A DNA stretch of 64,000 bases from Romanomermis culicivorax (lineage: Eukaryota; Nematoda; Enoplea; Mermithida; Mermithidae). The notes under the pieces are model-generated. The model saw nothing but the letters and a program-made list of their open reading frames with translations, did no database searches and was not told the origin of the DNA. This document shows positions 4,501-58,479 of the stretch, in pieces (the first letter of the stretch is position 1; each line of letters starts with the position of its first letter). The DNA is taken from the NCBI GenBank assembly GCA_963922205.1, contig CAWUHX010000142.1, forward strand, positions 372,001 to 436,000, written 5' to 3'. The translations under genes were made by a program, and so were the position numbers.

Positions 4501-7500
4501 GCCACCTGCATCCTCCACAGTATTGTCTGTGATGTCCGCGCTCTATTGTCTTGTGCTCTATTGTTCCTGCACTTTATTGTCCGCGCTCTAACGTCCGCGC
4601 TCTATTGTCCTGCGCTCTTTTGTCCTTGCGCTCAATGGTCTCTGTGCGCTATTCTCCCGCGCTTTAATGTCCCTGCGCTCTATTGTCCTGCGCTCTAATG
4701 TCTCTGTGCTCTAATTTCCGCGCTCTAATGTCTTGGTACCAAGGTAAACATGTGAAATTGGCCACTGGCGAATAAGTAATTTATAGTTTCTGAATTTCAG
4801 TACACCTACTAAATTCAGGGTGCCACAAAAATATATACTTTCCGGCAGGCCTGTAGCCAGGAATTTTTTTCGTGGGAACCACACATTTTTTTCACTTAAT
4901 TTACTGTAAAATTGGCATTTCTGACTTGCCTTTTCCTTGAAGAAAAAAATTTTAACACTTGAAACATTCCGGGGGGCATGCTCCGCCCCCCCCCCCCAAC
5001 CCGCCTGCCTATAGGCCTGCCATCGAGAATCTCATACAGCGAGCAAAAAAGTCACGACGCGGCATGGGAAGTACTAGCTTTACCATACCATATATGATTT
5101 TACCCCTATCTATATTTTCAACCTTGGGGACGCCTGATATAAATTATCATTGGTTTTTAATGTCAAGCTCGAAACTGATCATCTCTCAATATCGTAAAAT
5201 GGTCCACAGCACAAGGAATGAAGTTTATGTCATAACGAACTGAAGAAAAAAATTCTTTACACAATATTTTAATTCACAAATGATTAACTCTGCCCTAAGA
5301 TTTACATTGGTCTAGAAAATAAACGTCATAAAACAACGCCAGGACATGCAATAATTGCTATGAAAAATCGGATATTATCGACCATCAGCCGGCAATCTGC
5401 TGATGATGCAATACACTATCGGTCCACGGCCGATAATCAAACGAAGTTTAATTGCCGGTCGACGCGAAATATCAATTTTTATGGCGCGATGAGCCCAAAT
5501 AGAAACTTTTGGATTATTAGAACACAAGAGGTATTCATTGAATTATTTTTCAAGCTCTCAAGTTAAAAAATGGAATTCTTCCCTTTGATGATCAAGTCTG
5601 CAAATTTTGAGCAAAATATGACTCCATCCACTGTAAAAAGACCGTTAACTCGTTAGATGTCCGAGCTCTGTTACACGCAATGTGAAATTAATGTCCTGAA
5701 TGGTCGATTTTTGAAAAAAACTTATAGGACAGCAGGGTTTTCTTTTTTAGCCCAGTGAAAACAAAATTGGACCTGTGCTAATGAAAATTTCAGTCGTGCT
5801 AAGAAACAGTAATATAAATTAAGGAAAGTTAGCGACTGTGTTAATGGGACTCGTGCTAAAAAAAAGAAACCTGCTGGACAGTCAATCTTGAGGAAAGAGT
5901 GAAAGTTGAGGTACGACTTCCTGTAAGCTTTGAACGTTATTCCTTCATTGAGCAGAACTTGTGAACCTGTGAATTTGTAAACGCTGTTCATCTATATATT
6001 TCGCCTTACTTTGCTTCCCTATTCTAAACAGATCTCGACAGGTCAAACACATCAACGAACTCAAAAACTTCGTATAAATAATCGCATCGATTTTAGGTTC
6101 TTTGATATCGTCGATCGAATCAAGTGTGGAGATTGACGACGACGAGAGATATTTCTCGAGAATTTCTTTTGCATGAACGCCCAAATTCAACAAACGTAAA
6201 ATCAAATTGAAGGACGTGTTATCGCGTGGCAAACTTTCGTTATTAATGCATGAAGTAATCAATTTGGATATTAATTGATTCAAAAAATGTAAGACGTATG
6301 GATCGGCGACGATCATAGCAAGATCAGCGAGGAGATATCTGTCCTTTTCGGATTCTGAGAGAAAAAGAAGCTGCACAACGAAATCTACACAGAGAAAATT
6401 TTTCCGCAGGAAACGAAACTGTCTGAAGTCTTAATTTATCATGGAATGAGGAGCAAAACTATCTTTCTGTTATTTACTGAACTAACCAATTAGGGCCCGG
6501 TTTCATCAAAGAGACTTAAGCTCGAGCTGTAGCTAACTCTTATATTATATAATATTACTGTTAACGAGCAGCTCAACTCACACAAGCAAAACATATCGAG
6601 AAAGTTAAGCTGCAGCTGATCTGTATGTACCTTTAAGGCAATATTATAATATGCAGAGTTAATCTACATCTCAGTTACAGTTTAACTTTACCGATATGTT
6701 TTGTGTGTACGAATCATGTTTTTTTCAGAACCGTGCTGATGAAACCAGAGCTGTGCTTTCAGATATTAGCATGCGCTCTAATGACGCGAAGTGAACAATT
6801 TTTAAGAAGAGTTCGAGGAGAAAATGAATAAAAGATATCGAAAAATTGTGGTAAAAAAATCAAAAATCATCATTTTATAAAATGTATTCCATAAATTCCA
6901 CAAGATAAAAAATTTATTCTAAATGCTTTGTTTTTCGTTCGAATTTCTTTTGAAAGTATCAACATCAAACATGATTTTATTAATCGATAATGCAATAAAA
7001 ACAGGTAATTAGAATCGACAAACTCGCACATTACTTTCAGACCAACGAGGTATCGTTTGTCAACAGTGTTGATAAAATATTTTTTTATTAACACGAGTGC
7101 TAATGGGACTCCTGCGAAAAAAAGCCTGGTATGATTTACTATACCTGAGTTTCACTTTAGCGACAATGGTATAACATATAGAATTAAGCTAAAGCTGCAG
7201 CTCAAGTCTCTTTGATGAAATCGGCCCCAGTTCCCCGAATTTACATTTCTCATTTTATGAATAGCAGATTTCGTGAGCATTTTAAACTAAATTATTAATC
7301 ACTAATCAAGAAGAAATGAGTTTCAGACGTATCTTATTTTTTTCCTTTCCCTTTCTTACTACTTTTCTTGGCAGTAGAGTCCAGAACGCTTTTCAATTCA
7401 GATGCGTGCTTTGGATCCAAATGTTTGTCTTTCAAACAGGCGTCCAAACACCATGCGAATTTGTGGCAAGAATCGACGGCCAATAACTCTTGTATATCGC

Positions 7501-9993
7501 GATCGCGCAACGCCATCAATAGCTCCGATCGCAAACTACAAAAATGTTCGTTCGACGATGACAGGAAAAACTGTCTCAAATGACCGAGCAAACGATCGTA
7601 TAGAACAGTGGATTTTCCAACCATTAAACACAACGTTGAAATATGGACATTTTTCCGACGCAATTTGCTCGACTCGGCATAATAATTGGGGAAACAACTA
7701 TCGATGTCGAGAAAATATGTTCTTTTTGATTCCAAGTAAAGGTGGAAAACTGGTGTTAACTATAAGAGTAAAAAGCCGCGATTTGAAAAAGAAACTTCGG
7801 GTTCAAGCAAACATAACTATTTGAGCATTTATTAGATTTTGGTGATTAAAAAATTCAGACATTTAGCGAATTTTCAAAATTGTTCAATTTTTATCATAAA
7901 AATATATTTGGTACCTTGATGGCAAAGAATACTAATTTCTCTGATACTTATAGCGTTCAAGAAGATGAACACATTTCGATACCGATAGCATTAAAGTTGT
8001 ATAGAATTTTTGTAGATGAACTGAAAAGGAAACTATAACGGATTAATATCGATATGAGAACAATATAAAATAGGTCGTCTTTCCGTTTTGACATTTCAGC
8101 TGGAGAAAACGTTCTCGAGGCTCAACGATTTATCTCAACGGCGTATTCCTAAAACAGCGTTTCCTAAAACAGCGGATTCCTAAAACAGCGTTTTCCTACA
8201 TTAAAAAGATATGCGTTAAATCACAATGATGTGTTTCCCACGGTATGCGTTGCAAAGCTACCTCCAGAAGTGCTGTAAAGTGAAGTGTGTACGTATTGTG
8301 CGAGTGTTAGTCACTTTTTCATTTATTAATAACTGAATGTTATTGTTATGTGCTCTCATTTTGCGCCAAATTGTTGTAATAAAAAATTGAATGTTATTGT
8401 TTTCTCATTTTGCGTCGAATTGTTGTAGTACAAAATAGAATGTTATCGTTATGTGCTCTCATTTTGCGCCGAAAACCATGCACATAGCTTTTTTGGTGTT
8501 TATTTTAAACGTTTAAGCATCTACAAACGTTTGCATTTGAAAAAACAGTTTTCTTTCAAAAGTCTACAAAAATCTGCATTTTTTGCCCAAAAAAATAAAA
8601 AGCTACTAAAATTTTGCTTCGCATCAATTGACACTTTTTCCATTTTGAATGAAAAATAGCGAATTTTGCAATGATTAAACCCCCATGCATTTGCATACGG
8701 ATAAAACACGTCGTTGGAGAACAATTGCAAAGATAGTGGATATACGCCAATGACTACATATTTACTAAGTTAATGGTTAGTCAATGTTCGTTCATTATGT
8801 AAAAAAACAGACACTCTTCATTTATAAAAGCACGATCTGAGCAAAATAAACTTTTTCAACAGCGATCTAGTGTAAAGAAACTGAATGACAAATTGTGCCC
8901 ATATATCATATACTAGGAACCGCTGTTTTAGGAAAACGCTGTTTTAGGAAACGCTGTTTTAGGAAAACGCTGTTTTAGGAAACGCTGTTTTAGGAATCCG
9001 CTGTTTTAGGAAACGCTGTTTTAGGAATCCGCGTTTTAGGAATCCGCTGTTTTAGGAATCCGCTGTTTTAGGAAACGCTGTTTTAGGAAACCGCTGTTTT
9101 AGGAAACGCTGTTTTAGGAATCCGCTGTTTTAGGAAACGCTGTTTTAGGAAACGCTGTTTTAGGAACCGCTGTTTTAGACCTAAACCGTACAGCGCAGAT
9201 AACATGAACAAAACTAGTGTACCATAAAATCGACAGTTGGATATGGCTACTCGATAGACAATTTCATACACCAAAATTCGTCTAGTAGTTGAAGCACAAA
9301 TTGCTCGCGTTAGATTTTTGGAGGAAAAAAGTATAGATGGACTAAAGAACTTGGAGAATAATTCGTTTTTGAGCTGGAAACTTGAACATGGCATCTATTG
9401 CTTCTTTTTTACCTGTATGTAATTTAATTTGACCAGAACTAATCTGCAGAGAGTTATTTCCAGACGCATGCACAAAGATTCACCTCCTTCAAAAACAGTT
9501 TTTCATCTTCGATCCAAATCTGTTGTTTAACTTCAACCGCCGCGTCTTCATACAACGTCGAATCGTTTTTCACACGATTCAAGTAGAAATCCGGTAATTT
9601 CGGTAATTGTTTCAACGCTTCCAGTACAACTGGTCGCAAATGCGGTATATTCACGAATGGGAAACCTTTTATGACCAATTCGTTAACTTTCGCCAATGAA
9701 TTAGACTCATTTTTGCACGTCGCCATCGTCGAATCTGTCGATGTCGTGCCGTTGGCCAATTCGCGAATTTTAACGATTAATCGCTCACGCAAATCGTTGG
9801 CGACAATATCGTGGAATTCCGACCGTCGAACATTATGCAAATCCAATAATTTTAAGGCCGGCGATAATGTAGGACATTTGATGGCGTTATTGGTTTGAAA
9901 ATTAGTTATAGCTTCGATGGGGTCGTTACAAGTGGTTAACAAACGTTTCAGGGCGGCTGATCCTTGCTCGCCGATCAGATCTAGCGAAGTCAT
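1353..9993 (-). CDS. NELFB: NELFB, negative elongation factor subunit B (COBRA1), complete six-exon gene
   Basis: NELF-B is a helical-repeat scaffold of the four-subunit NELF complex, which with DSIF holds RNA polymerase II in promoter-proximal pause in the nucleus. Six minus-strand exons join in frame: 9474-9993, 7360-7749, 6010-6354, 2179-2397, 1817-2070 and 1353-1577, totalling 1953 nt and 650 residues, close to the 580-628 of vertebrate forms. Landmarks match the family along its whole length: near the N terminus LKRLLTTC and IEAITNFQTNNA, then VEVKQQIW, MVGKSTVLYD, LRSELLMALRD, CHKFAWCLDACL, LPRDN, LPESI and FLHLLVYHLLSL. The start at 9993 aligns with the human N terminus and lies 3 nt after a splice acceptor. 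All intron phases agree. Introns are swollen by transposons (3448-4740, 6493-7228, 8142-9180). The gene lies 334 bp downstream of GCN2 on the same strand. The least certain junction is the exon 1 donor (GTGCAT). Confidence 0.93.
1817..2070 (-). CDS. NELFB: NELFB exon 5 (residues 492-576)
   Basis: Acceptor CTGTTTTTAG, then GPYSETFLHLLVYHLLSLAE, matching the GDIFLHLL motif region of the family, followed by the C-terminal helices. Donor GTAAGA in phase 0. Confidence 0.9.
2179..2397 (-). CDS. NELFB: NELFB exon 4 (residues 419-491)
   Basis: Acceptor TTATTTTCAG, then LVTDEGQDAFNSDEDI and LPESIIEPF, corresponding to the LPESFTKFL segment of vertebrate NELF-B. Donor GTAAGA in phase 1. Confidence 0.9.
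3448..4740. mobile_element. Foldback element with minisatellite arms (TTAGAGCGCAGGACA type)
   Basis: The left arm (3448-3660) is a run of about 15-17 bp units of the form ACATTAGAGCGCAGG. The right arm is the same array inverted (CCTGCGCTCTAATGT) at 4020-4150 and 4530-4740, with about 370-400 bp of AT-rich sequence between blocks. The termini CCAGACATTAGAGCG and its inverse CGCTCTAATGTCTTGG bound the element. Flanks AAGGCGAA (3440-3447) and AAGGTAAA (4741-4748) agree in 6 of 8 positions and may be a decayed 8-bp target duplication. It lies in NELFB intron 3. No coding capacity is seen. Confidence 0.7.
4846..5019 (+). mobile_element. hAT-like MITE, family A (CAGGCCTGTAG ends)
   Basis: About 174 bp beginning CAGGCCTGTAGCCAGG and ending with the inverse CCTATAGGCCTG, with an internal C-homopolymer. 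Two other copies (48507, 49129) carry 8-bp target duplications; none is clear here. It sits in NELFB intron 3. Confidence 0.7.
5020..6009. other. NELFB intron sequence, mostly unassigned
   Basis: No gene is supported here. A short stretch around 5730-5890 (GTGCTAATGGGACT-like wording, reading GTGTTAATGGGACTCGTGC) resembles the end of the dispersed family N copy near 7090-7130. The rest shows no recognisable structure. Confidence 0.4.
6010..6354 (-). CDS. NELFB: NELFB exon 3 (residues 303-418)
   Basis: After the acceptor TTTCTCTCAG the exon reads SEKDRYLLADLAMIVADPY and continues through LPRDN, LILRLLNLGVHA and EPKIDAII, all matching NELF-B in order. It ends at the strong donor GTAAGG in phase 1. 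Serine-rich SSSSISTLDS is a local lineage feature. Confidence 0.92.
6493..7228. mobile_element. TIR element, family F (GGGCCCGGTTTCATCAAAG ends)
   Basis: The left end GGGCCCGGTTTCATCAAAG followed by AGACTTAAGCT is repeated inverted at 7180-7228 (AGTCTCTTTGATGAAATCGG), giving terminal inverted repeats of about 40 bp. The first half also contains alternating AGCTGCAGCT words. Family N (6735-7130) appears nested inside. No target duplication was found. It lies in NELFB intron 2. Confidence 0.65.
6735..7130 (+). repeat. Dispersed repeat family N, copy 1
   Basis: This segment aligns along most of its length with 51340-51660: CTGATGAAACCAGAGC, GAAAGTATCAACATC, AATCGATAATGCAATAAA and GAATCGACAAACTC recur in order. 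It sits inside the family F element, so it probably inserted later. No protein is recognisable. Confidence 0.6.
7360..7749 (-). CDS. NELFB: NELFB exon 2 (residues 174-303)
   Basis: Acceptor CACCAG, then FHLYLESKRTYFLDIDS, MVGKSTVLYD, LRSELLMALRD and CHKFAWCLDACLKDK, the best conserved NELF-B segment. The exon ends in a lysine-rich stretch with two donors 3 bp apart (GTAGTA and GTAAGA), both phase 1, so a one-residue splice variant is possible. Confidence 0.93.
8142..9180. mobile_element. Foldback element with minisatellite arms (TCCTAAAACAGCG type)
   Basis: The short left arm (8142-8198) has three to four units of TTCCTAAAACAGCG. The long right arm (8915-9180) has about 17 inverted units of CGCTGTTTTAGGAA with spacers of one to four bases. 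The interior (8200-8910) is AT-rich and includes three imperfect copies of a roughly 50-60 bp unit (GAATGTTATTGTTATGTGCT) at 8333-8470. Flanks CTCAACGG and CTAAACCG match 6 of 8. The element lies in NELFB intron 1. The unit core ACAGCG is shared with the element at 57369. Confidence 0.72.
9474..9993 (-). CDS. NELFB: NELFB exon 1 (residues 1-173)
   Basis: The exon begins with MTSLDLIGEQG three bases after the acceptor TTTTACAG and covers the conserved N-terminal helices, including CNDPIEAITNFQTNNA and VEVKQQIW. I place the donor at GTGCAT because this gives phase 1 to match exon 2 and the expected family length (EVNL continuing into FHLYLESK). A donor a few codons earlier, GTGAAT after LKE, is possible but breaks the phase. 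Confidence 0.88.
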
Positions 9994-13700: not shown

Positions 13701-16700
13701 AAGTTGAACATTGAAAGTAAGATATATTGTATGTACACTATGCATCGCAATAAAATGCAATTAATTTGGTAATTTTGTCCATATGAAATAAGCTACAGTC
13801 GTATGAGGCTACTATAAGGACAAAATTCTTCATTTGACATTTAGATGGTATCATTCGTTCATAATAATTCTGAGCCAGAGTCTGACGGTTAATATCAATT
13901 TCAAACTGATATTTGAATCACATTGTTACTTCAGTGATGAATCCTTGAGTTTTTACTTTTTTCATATGAAAAAATAGCCAAAAAAACTCACATAGCAACA
14001 AGACGAAAGTTAGAAATTACCGATTTTGTCGATATTCGACAAACACTTCTTTCGACTTTTGCAGGTTTAGTTACGTCAGACGTCGTCTTCTGTAAATTAA
14101 CCTATTATTGGGCGAATGAATGGGCTACAATCTACTGTAGGATTTATGAGTAGAACGGGCATATTAGGAATACAGCGATGCTCGAAACATCAAATTTTGA
14201 GAATTTCCATGCTGAATAAGTTCACGATGTCTTCTAATTGCTGACAAAAAATTATGGCAATTCATGAACTGCTAATGGTCGCAGAACATGGAGTTTACAC
14301 GCCATCTTACAATTGCCTTTTCTTATTATTGCGACCGCCATTGTGGAAGAATCACAATTTGATACATTTCAAAAATGAAACATTAGAACATGTTTCGTAT
14401 GATGAATATTGAGGTTATTTTTATATTGCATAAAAGTGAAACTTGCAAGGCAAAAGTATTCCAAGGTTTGAAATTTTCGCGTATTTTAGTATTTTTCTGT
14501 CTATTTACAAGACTTTAGATGCATTGGTCACAGGGTAGTAGGGGATAAACCCTCCTACCTGAGACCCTGAACAGCCTTCCTGGCCTGAAAAAAATCGTAA
14601 GACGTCATACCTGAACTTCTCCGAAAGCAGTTTTTTGATGATTTTGATGCAGATATTGTATGAAAAACATGCTTGTGGAGCTTTTTTTGTTTTTTCGCTC
14701 ACCCATCCGCTACTTCCCCTTCGATGAAAATTCCAATGACTTTCACCCTGGGAAATTCTTGCCTTGCATGTCAGGGCCTAGGCATCAAATAACTTTACGG
14801 TTGAACATCCATTAGGTTGCGGAGTACAGTGCTCTATAATTTAGTATAAGAATGTTTTTTTCTATTTACATTTTACACTTTTTAGCAAATTTTAAAATGT
14901 AAAAATAAGACGGTAAAAATGGTTAAAGCTTGTTTTTCCACAAAAATGACTGTATCTACTGCTGAAGCTCAGATGAACCGAAAAATTTCCTATGTCGCGG
15001 ATAGTTCACGATGTCTACTAGTTGCAAACAAAAAATGACAAAACTTCATATACTACTGGTTTGTTAAATATACAAAAGACTGCAAACTATTCTAATCGAT
15101 AAATTTTGATTTGCAATTCCAATTTGCTAAGTTTCATCTTTCTCGCATAAATCGTCTGCTTCAGCAGAATAGTAGTAGGGTCCTTGGTCTTCACAAAGGT
15201 GACTTGACTTGTTTTGCATGACCAGGAACATGCTACTCGTTGCACTGCTAGAAATTAATCATTGAAAAACTTTTCATTTTTGCTAACCAGTCTGGATATC
15301 ATTCCAGCAGGAAAATTTTGTTTTGATCGAATTCCTTCATCAAATTTGCTCAGTAGAAACTGCTTCTACTTTGCTGTGAGAATTTTACACTTTGCTTGAC
15401 TTTTGAGTGCTCATCCTCTTCTACAATATTTGTTCTCTCTACAATGTAGAATGCTCGTAACGCTTCTCGAGATTTGAGAGCAATGGCGTCAAATTAACTG
15501 ATTTCAGTTTCCTGCTATATGTACTTATAGCATTGTCTCTCAAGCCGACTCTTGGTGTTATCAGGTGATGATTACCGATTAATAGATGTTTGAGTATTAC
15601 AGCTCCAAAGTTTTGACATATCCGTCTCCTGGACAATAAGAAGGACTGTTCTTGCGTTGTTGATTTTCATCCTCCATATAGATCAAGGAACCTGCTAAGA
15701 TCCTGCTGAAGCAGACGATTTATGCGAAGAAGAAGTATATGCTATGAATGACCCGATTCCAAACAAATAGCTTCGGTGGCTCGTGATGCCTTGTTTTTCT
15801 GTTCATGCCCACACTATCAATACTCTGCTTTATCATCAAATCTGCAACATAAAATTTCGAGAAAATCAACTTTTGTTGATCAAGAGATGAAAATTAAAAT
15901 TTATTGACTAAAATAATTAGCAGTCTTTTGTAGGTTTAACACCTTTTCACTAAATGAAATTTGGTCTTTTTTGTAGGCAACTAGGAGACATTGTGATTTA
16001 TTCACCGCATATGAAAATTGTCGATCCTCTTGAGTTTTAGCAGTAAATATAGTCGTTGTCGTGGAAAGTAGTCAACTTTTTCACCATTTTTACCGTCTCA
16101 TTTTTTACACCTTAAAAGTTCTTAAAAAGTGTAAAATGCAAAATCCAGAAAAAATTATTATACCGCATCATAGACCATTGAATTCCGTATACGGAATTAG
16201 ATACATCTAATAAAGGTCAATAATAAAGTTACATACTCAAGTCGATGACAGAAAAGTTGAAAAATACAGAAATTTCAAGCTTTGGGATAGTAAAGCCCTG
16301 TTAATTTTATTTTTTATGCAGTTTGGGAATTATCTTAATATTCAGCATACGGAACTTGTCCAAATGTCTCAGTTTTGAAATTCATCAAGCCTCGATAGTT
16401 CTACAAAGGAGGTAGCAATTATCAGAGAATGCAATTATAAGATGGTGTTTAAATTCCAAGTCTTGCGACCTCGTAGCTGTGCATAAATTTCCGTAAATTT
16501 TCGTCAGCAAGTAGATGACATCGTGAACTATCTATTCTATGGATAAATTTTTGGTGGTTCTAAGCTTGTTGATTCTTGTGAACAAATGACATTTTTTTCT
16601 CTCAAAATCAGAAGTTTCAAGCGCCGCTGTAAGCACTTTACACTCATAAATCCTACAGTAATTGTAGTCCAATGGTACGCCTAACATTAGGTAAATTTAT

Positions 16701-19700
16701 AGAGTACGATGTCTGACGTATCTAAATTTGCGAAAGTTGAAAGAACAGTATGTCAAAAATAAAAAAAATGAGAAACTTTCAACTTCTGTCTTATTGTAGC
16801 TAAGCGAGTTTTGATTTTCAAACAAAATGAATCATAGCAAATTACACCAAATAAGTGGTTTTTAGATAAGGTTAATTTTTTCTCTTACCACAATTAAGTT
16901 GAATTCTTCCGAAAATCGTGTCTTAATTTTCCATAGTATTATTACAGTGCTAATCTGCCAGCAATTTAATTTCAGCTGCCACATTTTTTCGTTTCAGTAG
17001 CTATCTATTTTTCCTTAAGTAATTATGTTTCAACTCTTTGACAGCCTCTTTGAGCCGAGAACGTCTGTTTTTCGCACAAACTTTTTTCACAATTGTAAAG
17101 CGCCGAAATTTTTTCCCATTAAGGATTGTTTTAAAACAGCTTCTGCTTAAGAAAGCTAACATAGTTGTTGTTTGTGTGCAAGTAAGAGTAATGAATACTT
17201 ATTGCATTGACATTAGCGTTTTGAGTCATGTAGTCATAAGTACTTCAAGGAAGGTTTTAGGACATGGCATGTACGTAGAGTGTTTTATTAATAATCACCA
17301 TACATGACATTTCTTGTTTATTGAAAAACAACATTAATGTTAAAATGCTAATCTTTGCTGATGATGTTAAAATCTTTACAGGGGAATAATCTTGAGCAAA
17401 ATGTACTCTTAATCTAGTGGCCAAACTGTCAGCAGAATTTGAAAAATTATGGATACTTGTGAATCGAAGATTTCAGTCTAATGTATCGAAAAATCGAAAT
17501 TTAATGAAATATCAGAACAATACTGAAAAATGCTTATTACAGACGTCATCATATTTCCGGAAGCCTTGTTAATAACCATGTTTTCCTACCCAACTAAAGA
17601 ATGTGAGACCTTTACTCGAATATGCTACAACTGTATGATCCCACTCACTAGCTTATATAAAACCTTTGAAAAATATAAAATATCTTCTCAAAAACCTGAT
17701 TTGAAGTTGGAAGACTTCTGCGTCATCACGCAGTCGCCCACCCGACCACAAAATAACTTGAAACTAAAAGTAACATCGAAAAATTCTCATTTATGGGCAG
17801 AACAATCAGCATTCGGAACAAATACTCCCAGTGTATAGTTTCCGCCAGTAATAATAGGATATTAAAAGCTTTATTAGAAAGATTTGATATTGGAAAAATG
17901 TAGATCCACTGAACTTTTTGACCATGCACAACGAAATGTGAACTTCTGATAATGACTTTCAAAGTTTATGATTTATTTGTTAACCGCTCACTATTGTTTT
18001 TTTCTATATTTTTATTGATGTTTTTTGTTTTCTCTTATTTAATGCTTCTGCAATTAATATTATTATTCTTATTCATAAACGCATTTTTGCAGTGCACTAT
18101 AACTCACGTGTTAAATTCTTAAAACCGAAGAAAATGAAATTTTCTGGAAGTCATAATAGCAGAAAAGTTGAATTCTCAATTATTCTTCAAAAACCGTTAA
18201 ATATTAATAATTAGAGACGAAATAGAACTAGATGCGCTAAAACAGTCAAATATTAATTGAGTAATGGAACCAGACTTCCTAAGAACTTCACTTTAGCCAA
18301 ATCCAGATAAATAATGATACTAATGCTTAAAATCCACGCGGAGCAACAGAAAATTTTGAGGTTTTAAACTTCTAAAGCGTAAATTTGGCTCGTCATTCAA
18401 TAATTCTGGGTTATCTTGCAATAAAACAACTACAGAATAACGATCATAATTAAAATGTCCTGGCTTATCCAGGTTTTCAAGGTATAACTTTTTCTCTCCA
18501 ACTTTTCCAGGTTTCCAGGTTGTTGGACACCCTGGATATATCACTGAGTGTCTAATTTTGAAGAAAAGTGGCTGGTTCAGTGGATATATAAGTACACCTC
18601 CCACACAAACTTTAAACTTTACCCATATCAGAAAATCTCACGTTGTGAATCCCGAATATGACATGTTACTACAATCTTCATCACGCAAATTATGAGAGGG
18701 GTCACCATGTGGCTAGTCAAATGACCGACGATTTTTTGCGGGTTTTTATGACACCTCCCCCAATTACACGCACGATTAAAACAATATTACTTTTTTGAAT
18801 CAGGGCGTCCAGCGGTTTTCCAAAATGCAATTTTCAAACTTTTCCAGATTTCTAGGTTATTTTTCTGAATTTTTCAAGTTTTTCAAAGCAAAAATCAACA
18901 ATAATTCTTTTACTTAAAATGGTAAAAAAATGTATACAAGAAGCAGGCCTAAGCAACATGTTGATGCGCTGATGCATTCATTCAGTCACATAACTAAAAA
19001 ATCAGCTACATATCAACCATTTTTTATAAATCGAGACAAAATAGTAGAAATTAAATCAATTTGAACTGAAAAAGGCAACTAAAATTCATAAATCCGGCAA
19101 CTTGTTCGATCAGCACGAGCTTTAATCATAGCCCAGTACTGACCAGAGGCTTTCAACACGAGAAGCATACATGATCATAACAAAATTGTAATTTTTTTAA
19201 TTTTGCGATGTGTTAGCTCAACAAATTTTTTTTCGGAAAATCAATTTTTCCCAAATTTGACGTTCCCCATTTTAAAATAATTTAATTTCAGTCTGCGCAT
19301 TTTTTCGTTTCAGTAACTGTTCATTTTCCTTTAGACAACTCTGTTTCAATTCTTCAACTGCTTCTTTGTACCGAGAATCTCTATTTTTCCCACGATTGCG
19401 TAAATGACGCAAATTTTTTTCCCACGTAAGATGAATTTCTTTTAAAAACATTTTATGTTCCAAAAAAATCAGTGATTGCAGTTCCTGTACATTTTTAAAT
19501 ATTTTCGACGCTGTTACTCACATGAATGAAAATACTAAAAACACAAGGAAAAATAGCATTTTCGAAATCCGTCTCAATTTAAGAGTTTTACGCTTTAGCT
19601 GCTTTTCGGTCAGAATGAAAAATGTCAAAATACATTCGACAAATATCTCGGGTGAAAGTCGTAAAAAGTTTAGAACCTTGAATAAACTTGATGAAAAACT

Positions 19701-22700: not shown

Positions 22701-25700
22701 GCTGCTTTCCTCATCATCAACGTCGATATTCGTTTTTCTTCTGTTGAGACAATCAAGGGAATACGAAACGCTCCACTCGACAGAATCACTGACCGGAGGA
22801 GGTGCCAAACGTTCGATATCATCGTAATCGGAGCCTAGTAATTCGTGCGAAGACTGAAAAAAATGACTTATTTGAACAAGGAAATCAGCTGCATACGATC
22901 TTTTTCGATTGTCGTTACATCGTGAATGTTCATAAATGTACATACACTGTACGTGTACCCGTATTCTTGTACGTTTTTTCTCAATTCTTACAACATATAC
23001 ATAAGAGTAGGTAGGTTGAAAACTAAATATTCAAGACGTTGTTAAACAAGTTGGATTAAAAAAAATTGCGATTAAATTAGTTTGGAAAGTTAATTGAAGG
23101 TAAAAAATGGGCATCCGTTCGTTCCTGTTTGATCAGGACATAAGTTATACGACTTTCGCAGAACCTGGTTAAATGGTTGGCCCTCGACATAAAAGAAAAA
23201 CATTGTGCTGCTTCTCGCAGAAAGTAGTTTTATGTTCGATAAATGTAACTTTCCGTTGCATCCTGGGCCCGGTTTCACCACAACATTACGAGTCTTACGA
23301 GTATTACGACTGTCGAGTTCTAGGAGTAAATCAGTTTCACCAGCCTCACTCGTGCTACGGATGACGAGCTACAACTTACGGGCGATGGACAACAAATTAG
23401 GAGTGACCAAAGTCGTTCTACGGGTTTGAGCTTTGAGCTACGAGTCCGTAGTAAGAGTGTTTCACCATGTTTTCCGTACGACTCGTAAAATGATCATTTT
23501 ACGGGGTGTTTTTTGGCACTCGTTATACGGGAATTCTTAATGTTTTTATAATTGGATGTTGTAATTGGATTGGGAAATTTGTTCTGAAAATTATTAATTT
23601 CTAAGTTATTCTGAAATTTCATCAAATCTTGAAGAAATTTTCTCAATTCTTGTAAAAATTTGTTAGATTTTGTTGAAACATATAATTTCGAAAATTTTTT
23701 CAATCTCTACGGAAAATTATTTTCATCCCTTTTTTGAAAATTCGTCAATTTTACAGAAACTTTCTAAATTATTGTGAAGGTTGATTTTATTAAAAACATC
23801 CAAAAAATGCAAAAAAAATCTAGATCTTTGCAGATTATTCATTTTTGTTAATTATTTGTACGGAATGAAAGAAGGGCCACTTGAAAAAACTCGTAAATTC
23901 TTGAAAAAATTTGTTACCACCTGAAAAAAATTGTTACCTTCGAACATGATACACAACATGTTTTTAAAGATGTATCACTGAAATTTCAAGATGCTTCGTG
24001 AAAGTTTCCAGATGCATCGCAAAAAAATCAAGATGTGAGAGTTTTTCAATGTTCGACTTTTTTCAAGTGCATGGCATTTTTCTCAAGATAAACTTGGAAA
24101 AAAATCAAGATGGCATGATGGCTTCTAGAAATAAAATAAGATAACATCTTGAAAAAAATATTTCTGAAACTATTTCTGAAACTAGCCAATCGCAGGCGTT
24201 CTTCCACCCCTTTATATATTATATACGGGAACCCTTCAAAGTGGATTTATGAGGTCACGGCTTGCTGGCAGAGGACGCCCTTCGTTATTACCAGAGGGAG
24301 GTGGCAAAGGAGGGATGGTTATTTTGCATGGGCAATCCTATGTAAATATTGGTTTTTCCTAAAAAATTTTATTTTTTGAAAGTTTTTCAGAAAAATGTCA
24401 AAAATGCTTGTTTTTCGCCCAAAATGCGGTAATTTCGAAAAAGTATCCAAATTATCGTTTCTTTGTCGTTTTGACAAAAGAAAACAAATGACAAAAATGC
24501 ACTAATACCACCAACCTACGAGTCCTACGGACCCAGTTTTGGTCCGTGAAAATCTCATCAAATTTACGAGTCCTTTCATCATCATAGTGATGGGTAACTC
24601 ATTTGGTGAAACTGAACAGTCGTAAATTATGAAAACCCGTCGCTCGTAATACTCATAACTCGTGGGACCGTACTCATAAACTTTATTTTGTTGTGAAACG
24701 GCCATTCGTAGCCGGCCCAGGGCCCGGTTTCACCACAAAACTCCGTATTAAGAGTAAAATGTCACGAGTTACGAGTCCCGTGTTAAGAGAGCTACGAATG
24801 GCCGTCTCACCAAAAATCAGAGTTTACGGGCAAGGAATTACGAATCTAGGAGCGCTACGAGTGGCCGTTTCACCAAAAAATAAAGTTTATGAGTACGGGC
24901 CCACGAGTTATGAATATTACGAGCGACGGTTTTTTATAATTTACGACCGTTCAGTTTCACCAAATGAGTTACCCATCACTATGAGGATGAAAGGACTCGT
25001 AAATTTGATGAGGTATTCACGGACCAAAATTGGGTCCGTAGGACTCGTAGCTTAGTGGTATTTGAGCATTTTTGTCATTTGTTTTTTGTCAACCCGACAA
25101 AGAAACAATAATTTGGATCCTTTTCCGAAATTATCACATTTTGAGTGAAAAACAAGCCTTTTTGACATTTGCCTGAAAAACCTCAAAAAATTTTTTTTCA
25201 AGAAAAACCAATATGTCCATCGGATTGTCCGTGCAAAATAAAGAGAAATAACCATAACAAATAAATTTCAAAAAAAAATTCGATGCTCTTGAAAAAAAGT
25301 CGTACATCAGAAAACTCTCACATCTTGATTTTTTTGCCATACATCTTGAAATTCTAGCGATGCATCTTGAAAAAATGTTGTGCATCATGTTCGAAGGTAA
25401 CGATTTTTTTCGATGGTAACAAATTTTTTCAAGTGGTAACACATTTTTCCAAGCATTAACGAGTTCTTTCAAGTGGTCCTTCTTGTATTCCGTACGAATA
25501 ACTAACAAAAACGAGTAATCTGCAAAGATCCAAAAAATTTTTGCGATTTTTCTCTGATGTTTTTAATAAAATTAACTTATCTTCACAATGAATTCAGAAA
25601 ATATCTGTAAAATTAGCGAATTTACAAAAATGTGAGGAAAATGATTTTCCGTAGAGATTGAAAATTTTTTGAAATTTTTATATGTTTCAACAAAATCTAA

Positions 25701-28700
25701 CAAATTTTTACAAGAATTGAGAAAATTTCTTCGAAGTTTGATGAAATTTCAGAATATCTTAGAAATTAATAATTTTCAGAACAAATTTCCCAATCCGATT
25801 GCACCATCCGATTATAAAAACATTACGAATTCCCGTATGACGAGTGCGAAAAAACACAAATAAAATGCTCATTTTACGAGTCCTACGAAAAACATGGTGA
25901 AACACTCTTACTACGGACTCGTAACTCAAAGCACATCACTCGTAGATTGCAGTCAGTCACCCGTAGCACGAGTGAAGCTGGTGAAACTCAGTTACTCCTA
26001 GAATTCGACACTCGTAGTACTCGTAAGACTCGTAACGTTGTGGTGAAACCGTGCCCTGGATGTGTGTGAACAACAAGCAGAAATTTTTGTGCACAGCGTG
26101 GTGTGCATGGTGCAAAAACTGGGTAAAAAACTTTGTTCACTGTCAGAAAGAAAATCTGCACCTCCATAACATGAAATCACGTGGTGCTATATCACTGTTA
26201 CTGACATAGGCTGCGCGACTGGAAACTGCGCTAAAGTCTGCAGCTTTAAAAAAACTAAACAGATTTTTCCCCGTGACATTTAGGAATATATTAAATATAC
26301 AACTTTAACATAAAACCAAACAATGAATTCATTTAACAACAAAAACAATTATAAAACAGCATGTGGTAGGAGAAACACCATTGTTGCCAAATTTTGACTG
26401 CGAAAAATCCCGGAAAACCCCGGCACTTTTCAGACCGCAAAAAACTAACAAAAAACATTTCGTTAAATTCAAATGAAGTTACGGCATTGTTTTTTCGGGC
26501 ATATTTTTTTGTCATTTGACAGGAGCGGTCAAAATTTGTTCAGCCAAATAGTTTGATGTATACACACAAATGCCTTATTTATGCTTTTTTGAGCTCATTG
26601 GAACACCATCATGCTTCTGCAGTCGCGAATTTATCATACTTGAAGACACGAAATTTTCGAGTTTTAATAACAATATAACGGTGTCGCGACAAAATGTCTC
26701 CAACAAAATATCCCCAACATATGATCACCACGCAAAATGTCTCCATACAAAATACCCCCAACATAATGTCTCCAACATAATATGTCCAGCAAAATGTCTC
26801 CAACAAAATATCCCCAACAAATGACCTCCGAACAAAATGTTCCGGTGCAAAATGTCTCCTACACAAAATGTCTCCAACAAAACGTCTCTAACAAATATCC
26901 CCAACAAAATATCCCCAACCTATGGTCCCCAAACAACAAAAGTATTTCCGTGGTCTCATTGGGGAAGGGGTTGTCGACTATTGGGAATTCAATGGATGTG
27001 GTCACTTCATACAAAACATTATTCCAAGTGTAAACAAGCGTATTTTCGGGATTCTTTGGTGGGAGGGACCTCGACTGCAGGGAATTTGATGGACGCGATC
27101 AATTTACACAAAAAATTATTTCGAGTGTAAAGAAGCGTATTTTCGTGATTTCTCAGTGGAAGGAGTTTCCGACCTGTAAAATGTGTATGTGAACAAAAAA
27201 CAGATAGTTCACATACACATTTTACACTTACTTTAGTAAATACATTATTTTTTTTGTGAAAATGGTTGTTTCAATGTCTAGCATATTTGCCCTGTGTTGC
27301 CATTGATGAACTAGATAACAAGAATTTGACAAGCTATGAATGGAATATTTTAGCTGCGGCGATAAGAATATACATGTATAATGTATCCACACCTCAGATA
27401 ATTATAATTTTGCAGCTTGTCAATTTGTTAAAATCTTTTGCAGAAACTGTAAAAATCTATGAATCTAAAAACGCCTGTATTTCGGAGGAAATAGCTGGAG
27501 AAACGTAAGCTAGATTTTGTGCCTAAATTTTTCTGAAAAACATAGATTAAAGAATCGTATGATTAAGAATTTTACGCCACTCAATCCACAATTTCAACTT
27601 TCCTGGATTGGGTTCATTAAAGGAGGAATTGTCGGGGAAAATGAATCAATATTTTTATAGAAATGATAATCGAGTCCACTTTAAACCCATTGAAGACAAT
27701 AGACTTCATGCTTTGGCATCTTTACTAGATCCTGGATTTAAAAAGGATGGATTGAAATTTGAAATATATCACATATTGATCATACAAATCAAAATTAAAT
27801 AATTTAGGCTTTCTGTGATCCTCAAGCAGAAGACAAAGATGAACTAAAGTCTGTTTTCTATAAAATGCTTCCGAATAGAAAAGTGACACAAATCAGTATC
27901 GTTGTCAAAATCGTTTACATAAAGCCCTTATTAACAATTTTTCGAGTGAAAAATTTACAAGGGTTAGGTCAGTATGCTCACCAATTTCCATTTCTATATA
28001 ATATATTGTTTATCAAAAAATCGTGAAAATCTAAAATACTACTTACTTTTCACTTTCATTATTTAGAAGCATTTCAAGAAAAAACGACTATAGCTTTGGC
28101 TAGAATGGTTGTCGATCAAAAATAACAAAATCAACGCTTTTCTGAAAATATGGTTCAAAAATTTGAATGAATCTTCAAACTCATTCTCCAAACTTTCTCA
28201 GTAAGCCACAATTAATACTAATGTAAGTAATTCAAGCATTTACACAAAACTGACCAATTTCAGGCCCTATTTGGCCATTGCAAGTTCATCTGAAGATGAG
28301 CTGTAGCCCGAAAAATATGCAATGTCAACATTTGAGCAAGCAAAATCCATTGTTTTGGAATACATTACTAGAATAATGGAAGAAAAATGCTGCAACAAAA
28401 CCAGAATTAGCTAATGGGAGTCACAATAGTGTGCAGTTGAAAATAAGTTTCATTGTGGAAAAAATTTCTTTAGCTTGCCATGAAATTTTTATCAGCTCCA
28501 ATTGGGTCAGTAGCTAGTGAATGATCATTTTAAAAAGCAAAAGATGCTAGAAGTGTAAAAAGATCCCGTTTATTGCTGAGATTGGATCCAATAGTGCAAA
28601 CTGGAAAAACAAGCTGAAGTTGAAGAAGCTTCTAGTGAACCCAGCAATCAAAGTGAAGGTAGTACAACAGATGCCGTTGTTGATGACAAATTGGATGAAT

Positions 28701-31700
28701 GAAATGTTGTTAATTATTGAATGTTGAAAATATCAGTAAAACTTTGTGAATAATTCATAATAATTTTAAATTTATTACAGTGTAACAACTTCAGGTTGCA
28801 TTTTGTACATGTTACAGCCGATACATCGGCAATCGGCCATCGGCCGATGCCATCAGTGACCCTGGCCGATGCATCGGCATCGGCCGATGGCAAATTTTTG
28901 GCCATCGGTCCATCACTATTTACACCCGGGTAATTTTTTTTTTGTTTAAAGTGGCGGCATTCATTGAATTCCCAATAGTCGAAAACCCTTTCCCCAATAA
29001 GCCACGGAAATATCTTTGTTGTTTGGGGACCATAAGTTGGGGATATTTCGTGGGAGATATTTCGTGTAGGAGACATTACGTTGGAGACATTATGTTGGGG
29101 ATATTTTGTATGGAGACATTTTGCGTGGTGATTATATGTTGGGGATATTTTGTTGGAGACGTTTTGTTGGAGACATTTTGTCGTGGATCCATATAACCAA
29201 AGTGATTAGAAAGGCAACCAACGTAAAGCAAAAAATCCTAAACTGCCTAGAAATTCTACCATCTCTGTGATCAGCCAAAGTAAAAAATTATAGACTGCAG
29301 TTGACCTAGAGTCGAAAAAATTTTTGAAGTTTCATACTCTAGGATGCTGGTAAATGAACTTTTTCAAAACTCATTCCATGACTCAAGATTTAATTTTTCG
29401 GTCTAGAATGATGTTCAGACTTGAGTAATGAGATGATGTATTCAAAAGGCTAATCTGCTAGATCAGCGATGTTCAATAAACTCGGGTGAAACAGCAAGAA
29501 GGATAAAAAAGTTCCGGCGCGAAGCGCCAAAATTTTTGATGGATTTTGATATTAGAACGCTGAAAACTAAATTCTGTCAACAATTATTTTCAGGATAAGC
29601 TTTCTAATTCTGCAGTCAATTAAATTATTTTCCATACAAGAACAAAATGTAAAAATCATATTGAAAGCATGCAACTTGAAAACCCGCATGATTGACTTCC
29701 GCATTGTGCACAAAACGCCTTAAGAATTTGTGCACGGGCTCCAAAAACTGTGCTCAGTGCACAAGAAGCCTTGTATGCAAGCAATCGTCTTTCAGTGATA
29801 ACGAAGTAAAAAATAGTCTACAACGCCGAAGTAAGCATACTGCGCCATGTTTCTTCAATGTGGAGTAATAATGCTTAGAAGCCAAATACTGAAAATTGAT
29901 TGAAAATCCTGAAATTTGGATTTTCTAGTTATTGCAACGGTGCGAAATATCGCATTTTTGAAATAAATGCAGTCACCGTTGTGATTAGCGCCTGACAACA
30001 TATGTCACTTCCAGGTAGAATGATTAATTTCTGACTTGGCAAAGTTAAGGTCGGGCTTCGCAGAGCTTAATAAAAACTGTCTTCTACTTTCTACTGGAAT
30101 TATTTGGCGGATACTGAATACATTATTTTACTTTTTTATTTTGTTTATCCGCCGAGCTGCTCTTTTTTTGAGACGTTACATAATTGGATGCTTTTGTTGA
30201 CGCCCTTTCGATCCACGAATTGTAATAACGAACAACGTTTTCATGATTCAACCGCGACAATAGTTTCACTTCGCGAGTGATTTTCCTAATCTCAGTTTTA
30301 TTGTTTGGCTGTAAGACTATCCGCTTAATGGCATAAATTCCGTTATCCAACTTATTGCGAACTTTTACTACGTCACCGAATCCACCCCGACCCAAAAATT
30401 TTAGGATATCGAATTCATTTTCCAGGCGATTTGACTGCAGGTTTAACGGCAATGATAAAAATGCATTTGTCTCCATAGTCTGCAATTCACCTTCTTCGTT
30501 CTCTATGTTTTCAATCTGATCAGGGCGCATATAGTCTGAAAAATAAAATTTTGTAAGTGATATCACATGAAAAATGTAAGAACTTATTCTGCTGAAAGAA
30601 TAATAATTTTCACACTTACCAGCATCTAATTCAGCCTGATTCCTCAGAAATGAGTGTTTCAATAACTGCGACGCTGTCCATCGATTTTCTTCGTTGAAGG
30701 CAACCATTTTACGGATAAAATTTTTGAAACTGGATGGCAAAGTGTTGGGTATTTTAAACACATCGTTATCCTCAATAGATTGACCAGATGCAAGGGCGGT
30801 TAGAGAAACTCCAAGCAAGAAAACATCTAATTTCTGAGAAATTTTTCCCATTCCTGCAAAAAAATTAATCAAATTAAATAAAAATTAAATTTTCATGTAC
30901 ATAGTAGATACTTGTATAATAAATATTTCTACACTTTTAACGAATTAACCCTAGAAACATCTCGTACCGTAGAAATTTCTGCTGCTGCTAACTTTTTCGT
31001 CGTAATCAGCTCCGAATTTACAGTCATTTTTGAAAAAATGGCATAAACCTTTCATGCGTTTCCTGACAGAAAAATCGCTCAATAGAAACTTCGCCCCGCA
31101 ATCGAATATACAATCTAAATCTATTTCTTTGTGCAACACGCCTTTGGAGTGTAGATATTCTAAAGCAGACAAAATGTCGCGGCTCGATCTCTTTACGTAC
31201 GCCATACAAACGGCTATGTGTCGTTCGTAAATGACGTTTAATGGTAAGACATTGATTTGAGCTGATTTAATAATGTAAAACGAGCAAGATTCTTGATTTT
31301 GACGAACGAAGAGCGATATATAAGATACTAAATTTGGATGATCAAGTTTAACTAGACTCTGAAATTCTTTGTCGAAGGCTTGAATCTGTGAAAAGAATAA
31401 AATTTTTAACACGAGTACTTATGGCGAGAGCAACATACAAAATTCTAAGCAATTATTTGAAATGACAAGACTCTTATTATTTTTCGAATTATATGTACCA
31501 TCACGATTTGCGCAAGATTTTGTAGCCTCTGTACAAATTGAACTTAGAATAACGCAGATTGCAACAAATTCGTATGTGAAGGAGGACAGAAGTCCGTTTC
31601 TGAACAGTACCTGATGACATGTAAGTAGCTGTGTCATAAAGGTATAGAACTTTCCCATAACAAAGCTCTTAGGACCGTACATGTAGGAATGGGAATGGAA

Positions 31701-34700
31701 CGATACCACCCACTCAAGGTCCGTCTACTACCAAGCCGGGCCTTGGGGTCTTGGCCTGCAAAAGCCCATGAATAGGCTACATTTAAAATTAATTTATGGT
31801 CAGATACATATTTACTGTATGTTAAATTGCTTAATCAAATTTTGATTCACTTTGGTCGCCTACCCTGCACTACGAATATGATAAGACAGTCAATAAGAAT
31901 TCATTGTCGGCTATTATTAGTCCTACAATCGCATAAAAATGTTAAACACCACTATTACAATAATACAATATAACACACAACAATACAGTGGTGAGTAACG
32001 TTTCAATAGTGTACCAACTACCTTCTTCAGACTATGACAATTAGAATAATTTTCAATAAATCCTTGCTTGCAATGGGGTTTGATCCTTGAACTTTGCGAT
32101 TGTGAGTCGAGAGCTGTAACCACTGGGCCGTCAGGGGCCAATATTGGTTAGATCTTCCATTTAAGCTGGTGGACCATTGCGTTCCTTAAGGAACTTCCTC
32201 AAGGAGGTTCTATTCCATATGTAGCCTATTTCAATGCCTTTTTTCCTACATTGCAGTAACCTGCTACTTCCATTTCCATGGTCCCTAATTTTTTTCTTGA
32301 AGGTGTTGCTTTCATGGACCAGTATACTGGTGTTATCAAAGCTTGGCCTACACCCACACTTTAGACAATGTTCTGCCACTCCATTTCTTTCTTTATTCAA
32401 GTTCTTCAATGCATTTCTATGTTCTGAGATTCTAGTCTAGAGTGTTCTACCTGTTTCTACAAGTCTACATAGGAGAAACAGGTAGAACACTCAACACTAG
32501 AGTCTCATAACATAAAAATGCATTGAAGAACTTGGATGAAGAAAGAAGTGGAGTGGCAGAACATTGTCCAAAGTGTGGATGCAAGCCAAGCTTTCATAAC
32601 ACCAGCATACTGGCCCATGAAAGCAACACCTTCAAGAGAAAAATTAGGGGGACAATGGAAATGGAAGTAGCAGGTTCCAGCAATGTAGGAACAAAAAGCA
32701 TAGAAATAGGCTACACATGGAATAGAACCTTCTTGAGAAAGTTCCTTAAGGGATGCAATCGCCCACCAGCTTAAATGGAAGATCTAACCAGGCAAATAAT
32801 GGCCCTGATGGCCCGATGGTTACAACTCAATACTCACAATCTCAAAGTTCAAGCATCAAACCCCATTGCAAGCAAGGATTTATTCAATATTAATCCAATT
32901 CTCATAGCCTGAAGAAGGTAGTAGGTACATTACCGAAACGTCGCTCACCACAGTATATATTGTGTGTTATATTGTGTTATTCTAATAAAGGTGTTTCACA
33001 TTTTTATGCGATTGTAAGGCCAATAATAGCCGACAATGTTTTCTTATTATAACCAATCGCAAACATCATTTCGCAAATTGTTATAAGACAGTCAATAGAT
33101 GCTTCCAATCTGAATTTTCAATTTCAGTTCTATCTTTGTCCCGAATTTGTTGACTTTTCATATAAGACAAGACTGCGTTTGTCGAATTGATAGACTTTCA
33201 AGTTACGTCTGAAAATATATATACAGCATCGTTGATCTTCCACAAATTTGAAATTTGTTGTGCTATAAAATTTAATGCCTGTTTTAGACACTGTTTTTGT
33301 TGTGAAACTGAATAACTCAATTTAATGATCTGTTTTTGCTTGTATCTATTTTTTTACTGCATATTTTTCACGTGCCAAAGGGAAGATGCCTTGTTTTTAG
33401 GTGTGGTGCAACTCTTCCTACCATTAATAATGATAGACCAGCATATAAAATGTACCGCTCATCATCGAAATCACTTGGAACAAATCTGCAGCATCATATA
33501 AATGATATTGACAAACACTTGCTTGGAGGCAATTACCTTCTTGTCTCCTTTTTTGGATGCAATCGCAGCAGGAAAAATACCAACACTGCTCTCAGTGTCA
33601 ATATAATTTCTTTCAATGATCGATAATTATAGTGGCTATCCTTCTGGTCAGAGTTTGCAACAATTGCAATTGCTCAAAAAAAATTTTAATTTTCTGCATC
33701 AGAAATTAAAAATTGCCAACCTTCATAAAGCATCGTTGTTATTAAAGCCGAAAAATAAAAAATTCTAGAAGATGAGAAGACTTATCAGTTTGTTCAGGAT
33801 TTCAATAGAACTGCTGTTGGAAGCTCAGATGTTCAAAAAAGTCAAAAAACTACTCAGCTGCCGGAGAAACAGTCGCTTATGCTAGTCAATTGGAAAAATG
33901 TTTATACCCTGCCTGCAGACATGCACGGCAAGAATTTTTCAGGGGGAGGATCCTTGGAAATTTTATGCAGGAGGTAGGAGGTGGCACACATGTAACGGGG
34001 CCCAGAGTCTGAGGGGGCGACTTTTTTAGGGCCGGGGGGTCAGTAATTACAAAAATTTTGGGAGGAGGGGTCTCTCAAGCAAAAAAAATTAGATTTTTTC
34101 ACGAAAAAAGTCCGAAAAATAGTTCAAAAAAAGTAATTTTTTCTAAAAAGACCGGGAAAATATATTCATGGCGCGAAGCGCCCAGAAAATTCACATTTTT
34201 CACCATTTTTTGTTCAAAAATTTACATTTTTCATCAAAAAATTAACATTTCTCAGTATTTTTCCGACCAAAAGTATCGAGGTCCCTAGGTCTACCATATG
34301 GCTAGCCATAGGATTGGAAAATCCTGGGGGCGGGCGGTCGCCCAATGGTTAGCCATACGGCCGAAGATTTCTGGGGGGTCCTATAGCACTTCCCCACAAT
34401 TACATGCATGGGGGTTGGGCGAGCAAAAAAAGAAAAAAAAGTTCTGCAAGCTTGTTTTTCATGCAAAATATACACAAAAATCATCAAAAAAGCTGTTTTG
34501 GAAAAAGTTCAGGGTGGTGTTAGACGAATTTTTTTGGGCCAGCGGGGAGTGGCCAGGGTCTCAGACAAGGTGGGTTTACCCATACATGCACATAGGGAGG
34601 GTAGGGGAGGTAAGCCCCCTTACCTGAGTCCCTGGCCACCCCCCCCCCTTACCCGAAAAATCGTCAAACACCCCCGTGAACCATTTTCAAGACAGCTTTT

Positions 34701-57368: not shown

Positions 57369-58364
57369 GGCGTGTTCCCAAAACAGCGAAGTCTCAATAC
57401 AGCGATTCTCAAAAGAGCCTATCTCAATACAGTGAATACTAAATATCTAAATGCAATAGAGTAAACTCGCGCATCCTTTTATGATAAATATGCAAAATAG
57501 GTAAATTAAAATCGTTCTTGCTAGTTGTGATTGTCTATTTTTAGTTGCATTTGGCCATCTAAATTTCACGTGCTTTCGTGGTGCAGTTGCGGTGGGTATG
57601 CGCGAACGGACCCTCCAAAATCACAAAAAAAAGTTTTCTGAGAAGAGCATTTTTTCGAAACGTTTGAAAAAAAAACAAAAGCAAAACATTATCATAAGGA
57701 TTCTCCATTAGAGTTGTTTAGCAACCAGCTTAATTGCATTTCAAAAAAACTAAATTGATGACATAAATAAAATAAAGTAAACAAATAAGATGAAATGAAT
57801 AAAATAATTAAACAGTGAAGGCAGAACAAAAAATGGATGATAAAGGCATGAGAAGTAAAACAATGTAGTAAAAAGTAAGTAAAAAATAGAACACAAGTAC
57901 ACAATCTGAAAAAATTATAATAGAAGTAGCACAGAATAAGAATATTGAACGAAATAAATCGATAAAGGAAAAAAGGAACATACATGTGGATATGCTTATA
58001 ATAAACAAACCAGAATAAAAAGCTGTAATGTCGTGAAAACACATGCTATAAAGCCATGTCAGAAATTCCAAAATGTGTGACAACCAGCATCCACCAGATC
58101 GAAAAGGAGGATCAAATGGGCCGTGTGCCAAAACGTCTACCCCGCTCAATCTCAATTTTTACATTCTAAAGATAACTGTTTTGAAAATCCCTTATTTTAA
58201 GAATCTGTTATTTTGGATAATCGCTGTATAGAGACTTCGCTGAATTGAAAATTGCTGTATTGAGTCTTCGCTGAATTGAGAATCGCTGTATTGAGACTTC
58301 GCTGGATTGAGAATCGCTGTATTGAGTCCCGCTGTTGTGTGTTTCGCTGAATAGGGGTGAAACC
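57369..58364. mobile_element. Foldback element with minisatellite arms (CAATACAGCGAAGTCT type), perfect 8-bp duplication
   Basis: The short left arm (57369-57440) has units CCCAAAACAGCGAAG and TCTCAATACAGCGATTC. The right arm (58190-58364) has about nine inverted units, CGCTGTATTGAGACTT. It begins GGCGTGTTCCC and ends GGGTGAAACC. GATTTATA flanks both sides (57361-57368 and 58365-58372). The interior is A-rich (57660-58040) and shows no transposase. Confidence 0.85.
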
Positions 58365-58479
58365 GATTTATAGATCAAATTTTTATAATGTTAATGCGCT
58401 TTTTGTCGACTAAAAAATAAACGAGTGAAAATCAGAAATTTCTCAAGTATTTTGTTTGAATTTCAAGCACTTATTGTTT

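Follow-up and report, generated by a model that had tools for sequence, protein, structure and literature searches.

A minisatellite-armed foldback of the MULE superfamily with a dead hAT copy between its arms in Romanomermis culicivorax

The foldback and the hAT piece between its arms

A foldback element with minisatellite arms lies at 26680-29190 of a 64,000-nt stretch of the genome of the nematode Romanomermis culicivorax (GCA_963922205.1, CAWUHX010000142.1:372,001-436,000, forward strand), which is the window to which all plain coordinates refer, and it encloses the remains of a hAT transposon. A preliminary description of the window had already noticed the foldback, the dead hAT inside it and a hAT 3' end near 28920, here placed at 28918. 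It preferred to see the hAT as an autonomous-type relative of the minisatellite-armed elements, and named as an alternative the insertion into the foldback of a separate hAT element that brought its own 3' end. The description and the alternative are upheld by the present analysis, whereas the preferred link is not: the arms belong to the MULE (Mutator) superfamily, and the structure in the window is very probably ordinary nesting plus a deletion scar, a dead hAT having inserted into a MULE foldback. The genome searched comprises 359 Mb, and in each genome-wide DNA search the best 40 candidates were scored, out of 279 for the arm query, 3929 for the hAT query, and 2759, 266, 995, 301 and 497 for the others. 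Moreover, 20 arm-like loci were fetched by similarity and 20 hAT loci were examined together with roughly 1 kb of flanking sequence per side.

From the outside inwards, the foldback consists of a terminal motif, about 240 bp of 14-bp units and a layer of ~97-bp repeats, and the right arm mirrors the left. Its features are the following:

26673..26679, no strand: left target duplication ATATAAC, identical to the 7 bp at 29191-29197
26680..26686, plus strand: terminal motif GGTGTCG, one of the two end types of the armed family
26689..26936, plus strand: outer left arm of 14-bp minisatellite units ACAAAATGTCTCCA, with 39 other places among the 40 scored
26937..27174, plus strand: inner left arm, about 2.5 units of the ~97-bp repeat; homology to other foldbacks ends at 27174
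27175..27194, minus strand: 20-nt filler, the exact reverse complement of hAT 27207-27226 (as seen by eye), into which none of the other scored places extends
27195..28918, plus strand: 5'-truncated copy of a non-autonomous hAT (copies 93-97% identical, with a shared 3' end and shared stops)
28471..28572, plus strand: remnant of the hAT C-terminal dimerisation domain, broken by stops (weak match to Pfam PF05699, below the cut-off)
28903..28918, minus strand: 3' terminal inverted repeat CATCGGTCCATCACTA, the inverse of TAGTGATGGACCGATG, as at the ends of family copies
28919..28926, no strand: presumed right 8-bp hAT target duplication (TTTACACC), placed from the family; the left copy is gone
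28919..29018, minus strand: inner right arm, one inverted ~97-bp repeat; homology to other foldbacks begins at 28919
29019..29188, minus strand: outer right arm of inverted 14-bp minisatellite units, from repeat and inverted-repeat analysis
29184..29190, minus strand: terminal motif GGATCCA (read inwards), the other end type; GGATCC ends at 29190
29191..29197, no strand: right target duplication ATATAAC, the partner of 26673..26679

The 14-bp units occur as 16 copies of ACAAAATGTCTCCA at 26689-26919 and as ten copies of the inverse GTTGGAGACATTTT at 29036-29181. The two arms are 94% complementary across 99 nt (26689-26787 versus 29069-29167), and a search with the left arm recovers the right arm in inverted orientation over 149 nt (E 1e-47). 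The second arm layer, formed by the ~97-bp repeats inside the 14-bp arms, had not been mentioned in the preliminary description. The flanks agree exactly over the 7 bp of ATATAAC, or in 7 of 8 bases if the boundary is shifted by one base. Elsewhere in the genome, the ~97-bp inner repeat has five scored matches on one strand within 2.1 kb (C281:32364-34464); this cluster is perhaps a satellite-like array grown from a foldback inner arm, as is described for Tetris in the part of PMC4079207 consulted.

Both junctions between the foldback and the hAT piece can be placed closely. Of the alignments between the left inner array and other foldbacks, 53 end at 27174, two run beyond it and the rest stop earlier, and none of the 39 other scored places crosses the left junction, all of them stopping at or before 27174. 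Only twelve bases separate the 20-nt filler that follows from its source in the hAT (27207-27226). On the right, the hAT 3' end abuts the inner array at 28918/28919: 42 alignments of this array start at 28919, four at 28920 and four up to seven bases earlier, while a further 71 begin only at 28938-28939, after a T-rich stretch. Of the 39 other places scored for this junction, 38 end at most nine bases away from the hAT terminus.

The armed family and its MULE coding pieces

Both arms, with the same two layers, are present in 17 of the 20 loci fetched by arm similarity, and the core between the inner arrays measures about 200-620 bp in 16 of these and 1.8 kb in the remaining one (L024). None of these 17 other two-armed copies holds the hAT inside the element. 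Instead, the core of L019 contains an open stretch (3217-3471) that aligns with the C-terminal end of a MULE transposase, and the peptide that it encodes is matched at E < 0.001 in all 17 two-armed loci (L019 included) and in the single-armed L018, thus in 18 of the 20. At another locus, L057, the peptide has its counterpart at the end of an open 371-aa open reading frame (ORF), in which Pfam recognizes a MULE domain (E 5.8e-16) and, just upstream, a FLYWCH zinc finger (E 1.2e-12); five of the 20 loci match the 371-aa ORF directly at E < 0.001. The 95-aa L019 core peptide had no match in Pfam, and its link to MULEs therefore comes from alignment to the longer ORFs.

Two other loci carry more of the transposase. 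At L058 (C135), an arm and inner repeats are followed by C-terminal, middle and N-terminal MULE pieces with 38-50% identity to L057; Pfam gave no match for two of these pieces, though both align to the L057 MULE. Moreover, C378:153527-161705 is an 8.2-kb element with arms at both ends in opposite orientation, between which three MULE pieces stand in order on one strand (156600-157246, 158633-158972 and 159386-159700). Its ends, GGATCTACG and AGTGTTGCG, lie inside GTTTTTTTG and GTTTTGTTG, an imperfect 9-bp duplication with 8 of 9 bases matching. Because the 17 two-armed copies carry the MULE C-terminal part and the C378 element holds three MULE pieces, the arms are assigned to the MULE superfamily; in the family, MULE transposase sequence is thus found between paired arms in C378 and in the short copies, and in the window copy the core is deleted. 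As a separate observation, L022 contains, between its inner and outer right arm, 5.3 kb without arm or inner-repeat matches (3751-9036), which hold a 297-aa open frame.

The ends and the target duplications of the family are consistent with this assignment. The ends were sought by motif in 18 foldbacks, including that of the window, and both were located in 13 (L012, L020, L021, L024 and L028 were excluded); all 13 have one GGTGTCG-type and one GGATCTA-type end. When these 13 and the C378 element were examined for target duplications, lengths of 8 or 9 bp, allowing for one mismatch, were found in 11 of the 14 own pairs, as against one of 182 cross pairs, the three failures being the window copy, L014 and L025. 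Thus, 11 of 14 fall within the 8-11 bp used as a criterion for MULEs, and the lengths of 8 or 9 bp speak against tying the armed elements to hAT.

The hAT piece and its family

Elements of the hAT superfamily have TAGTGATGG ends and make 8-bp duplications. The piece in the window belongs to an abundant, separate and non-autonomous family of this kind: a search with 27180-28800 gave 39 places besides the window among the 40 scored of 3929, with 93-97% identity, and 32 of the 39 begin at 27195. In 18 of the 20 copies read, the longest BLAST match ends at 28917-28922, and the sequence beyond differs between copies. Upstream, 14 of the 20 extend for another 129-154 bp beyond the equivalent of 27195, as far as TAGTGATGGACCGATG (L049 differing there in one base). 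Hence the 5' end is missing from the window copy, which still has its natural 3' end. Both ends were found by motif in these 14 copies, the 5' motif not being found in L045, L047, L050, L052, L053 and L054, and 13 of the 14 have an exact 8-bp duplication, while exact duplications of 4-7 or 9-12 bp occur in none of them.

In Pfam, with stops written as X, the Dimer_Tnp_hAT domain is matched weakly at about 28471-28572 (E 0.0069; 16.6 bits against a cut-off of 21.4), and with residues substituted at the stops the score rises to 22.0 bits. No match was obtained for the whole hAT stretch with stops as X, nor for the LLDPGFKK stretch. The identification as hAT rests more on the TAGTGATGG ends and the 8-bp duplications of the family than on this match. 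Some of the gaps between the hAT signatures may be introns.

All 20 other copies have the two stops of the dimerisation motif and a third one upstream of them, and at the positions of the window copy's remaining stops 17 to 20 of the 20 also have a stop; moreover, no open stretch exceeds 87 codons in the 21 aligned copies, whose mean identity among one another and to the window copy is 96%. Since stops are common to all 20 copies, the family multiplied when it was already dead, and with its gene so decayed it would have spread only with a transposase from elsewhere, which makes it an example of a dead hAT family multiplied in trans. These copies resemble non-autonomous members of the hAT superfamily in their TAGTGATGG ends, their exact 8-bp duplications and the putative remnant of the dimerisation domain, and differ in the decayed gene, with two motif stops in 20 of 20 copies read, and in the transposase needed from elsewhere.

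The hAT and the armed families are found apart. Neither arm nor inner-repeat sequence was detected at E 1e-5 in any of the 20 hAT copies read, including the flanks of about 1 kb on each side, and no start of a hAT copy (39 besides the window's) falls within 47 kb of the 88 arm or inner-repeat places, both sets having been listed by hand from the scored matches after most extra matches per element had been dropped (distances are from start to start). Hence the pattern that the preliminary description had set against its own preference, namely arms without a hAT inside and hAT copies bounded by their own TAGTGATGG ends elsewhere, is what was observed, among the best-scored places rather than genome-wide. 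In the window itself, two further stretches (58476-58708 and 59860-60093) are 68-69% identical to hAT 27849-28092 and lie in the same orientation, 1.38 kb apart; one frame of 58000-58900 had no match in Pfam.

Proposed history and rival explanations

The structure very probably arose in four steps. A non-autonomous MULE foldback, with 14-bp outer arms, ~97-bp inner arms and a short core containing a transposase remnant, would have inserted and duplicated ATATAAC. An unrelated and already non-coding hAT copy would then have transposed into the right inner arm. A later deletion would have taken the core together with what remained of the left inner arm, some of the right inner arm and the 5' end of the hAT (129-154 bp). 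Finally, the broken hAT end may have folded back, copied 20 nt of itself and joined the left arm, which would provide an example of a likely snap-back scar within a long inverted repeat. The armed elements themselves would be mobilized by a MULE transposase, perhaps through binding of the arm units.

Three other explanations were considered. That the foldback has its own transposase gene in the hAT frame, which would make the armed elements hAT elements, is suggested by the position of the hAT between the arms and by the flanks, which agree in 7 of 8 bases. Nevertheless, as far as copies were read, this is almost certainly wrong and is rejected here, as the hAT is absent from the 17 other two-armed copies, the interior of the armed elements holds MULE pieces, all 20 hAT copies lack arm sequence in their flanks and the duplications of the armed family are of 8 or 9 bp. 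An erroneous connection of minisatellite-armed foldbacks with hAT is thereby averted, and the better link is with MULEs, the 8.2-kb C378 element being the witness. It is improbable, too, that the hAT piece entered as filler DNA during break repair of the foldback, without transposition. In favour of this are the truncated 5' end, the inverted 20-nt copy at the left junction, of a kind that break repair can leave, and the lack of a demonstrable hAT duplication; however, the right end is the exact hAT terminus adjoining intact inner-arm sequence, which would be rare for random filler. A marginally smaller chance is given to the MULE pieces being passengers in elements moved by another transposase. 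The short copies hold fragments only, and C255 is armed and gave no clear MULE match in the parts read, but all 17 two-armed copies have the common transposase end, the three MULE pieces of C378 stand in order, the L057 MULE has a matching layout with another unit, of 15 bp, and duplications of 8-9 bp fit MULEs, according to the part of PMC6446971 consulted.

Several observations nevertheless weigh against a hAT nested in a foldback moved by a MULE. With its boundaries set by the motifs, the window copy has an exact 7-bp duplication (or 7 of 8 bases) and fails the test for 8-10 bp; its core is gone and a MULE remnant of its own is not visible, so that its membership of the family rests on the arms. 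The left end of its hAT is gone, and with it the left copy of the 8-bp duplication, and one of the 39 other places scored for the right junction (C137:35605-35681, 86% identity) extends 30 bases past the hAT end. A hAT-like piece, 78% identical to 27844-28093, also lies about 2.75 kb outside the foldback of L020. As for the MULE genes, those of C378 and C135 are fragmented, some pieces containing stops; FLYWCH has no significant match in L058, being present in the relative L057; and a fully intact MULE copy with these arms was not found among the copies read. C255:77469-82626 has paired arms and was rejected as an armed MULE, no MULE match in the 3.3 kb read being better than E 0.04. Furthermore, when L009-L026 were compared by eye with L058/L064 and L062/L063 (C135 and C378), the coding strand of C378 and L058 was seen to face the GGATCTA end, the opposite of all 12 short copies with both ends located, in which the MULE remnant faces the GGTGTCG end. 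This difference resembles the outcome of an inversion of the interior relative to the arms, and C378/C135 and the short foldbacks may therefore be different subfamilies.

Comparison with known armed elements

The arms are most like Tm1 of root-knot nematodes and the Phantom elements of aphids, and, as required of the Tm1/Phantom type, they have ~14-bp units and two different 7-bp terminal motifs (one of each kind in 13 of 13). In the part of its description consulted, Tm1 is a Mutator/Foldback family with 39 and 22 elements in two species; it has a tandem arm motif of ~14 bp, two distinct 7-bp terminal motifs (A1 and A2, at opposite ends), duplications of 8-10 bp, mostly 9, a transposase with MULE and FLYWCH domains, mostly non-coding copies and nested insertions (PMC3169594). 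It differs in its unit and terminal sequences (CGATTCAGTATCCGC in Tm1) and in having a motif D, and ~97-bp inner arrays are not among the Tm1 features described in that part (PMC3169594). Phantom MULEs, as far as the consulted part of their description goes, have in common the MULE domain, duplications of 8-10 bp, the FLYWCH zinc finger (seen here in L057, a relative) and a minisatellite adjoining the transposase ORF, which in aphids follows it (PMC6446971, Table 1). Inverted minisatellite arms are not among the Phantom features described there (PMC6446971), and the likeness is one of description. Tetris of Drosophila virilis, also likened by description rather than by sequence, resembles the family in its arms with internal tandem repeats, its 8-10 bp duplications, its variable middle and the known copies without transposase, and differs in its repeat unit of ~220 bp, in the part of PMC4079207 consulted. 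The gain for specialists is thus modest, the plan of the armed family being already known from Tm1 and the minisatellite already noted for aphid Phantoms. The sequence CAAAATGTCTCC occurs in four printed papers, none of them on transposons to judge by the titles.

Other minisatellite arms and inverted structures

The MULE of L057 (1-2184; C9:626400-628583), with its open 371-aa ORF and FLYWCH domain, lies between inverted 15-bp arrays, of which the left exceeds the fetched stretch. The right array ends, read inwards, in GGATCCCGACAA, which resembles GGATCTACGACAA of the window family, at the putative boundary of the element. The arms, built of CAAAATGTCTCCAA in C378/C135 and of ACGACAATTGGGTGA in L057, have a similar GGATC..CGACAA at the outer end. 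At L060, a MULE end stands beside a 14-bp array. At least two MULE lineages in this genome have inverted arms, each with a 14-15-bp unit of its own. Tentatively, and with the balance somewhat on the other side, it may be proposed that the units are transposase-binding arrays that diverge with the transposase and that the many minisatellite-armed foldbacks here are parallel MULE families instead of a single one.

Another foldback in the window (3457-4735) has inverted arrays of a 15-bp unit, GACATTAGAGCGCAG, at 3457-3649 and 4533-4735. Its arm had 995 first-look candidates genome-wide, and no MULE place was seen by eye within ~20 kb of the 40 scored places of this second arm family (3456-3650); therefore, the wider proposal rests on L057 and, weakly, on L060. 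Inverted arrays of a 15-bp unit (AACAGCGTTTCCTAA / TAGGAAACGCTGTTT) at 8137-8198 and 8914-9178 probably delimit one more armed element (8137-9178). Single arrays occur at 58219-58335 (15-bp unit TCGCTGTATTGAGAC) and at 62880-63082 (17-bp unit TTGGCGCCCGTCTCACT). In addition, the window contains long inverted structures with plain arms at 23259-26062, within which 24319-25241 is nested, and at 31892-33048 and 13983-16812; one of these plain-armed structures is a 1.16-kb palindrome at 87%.

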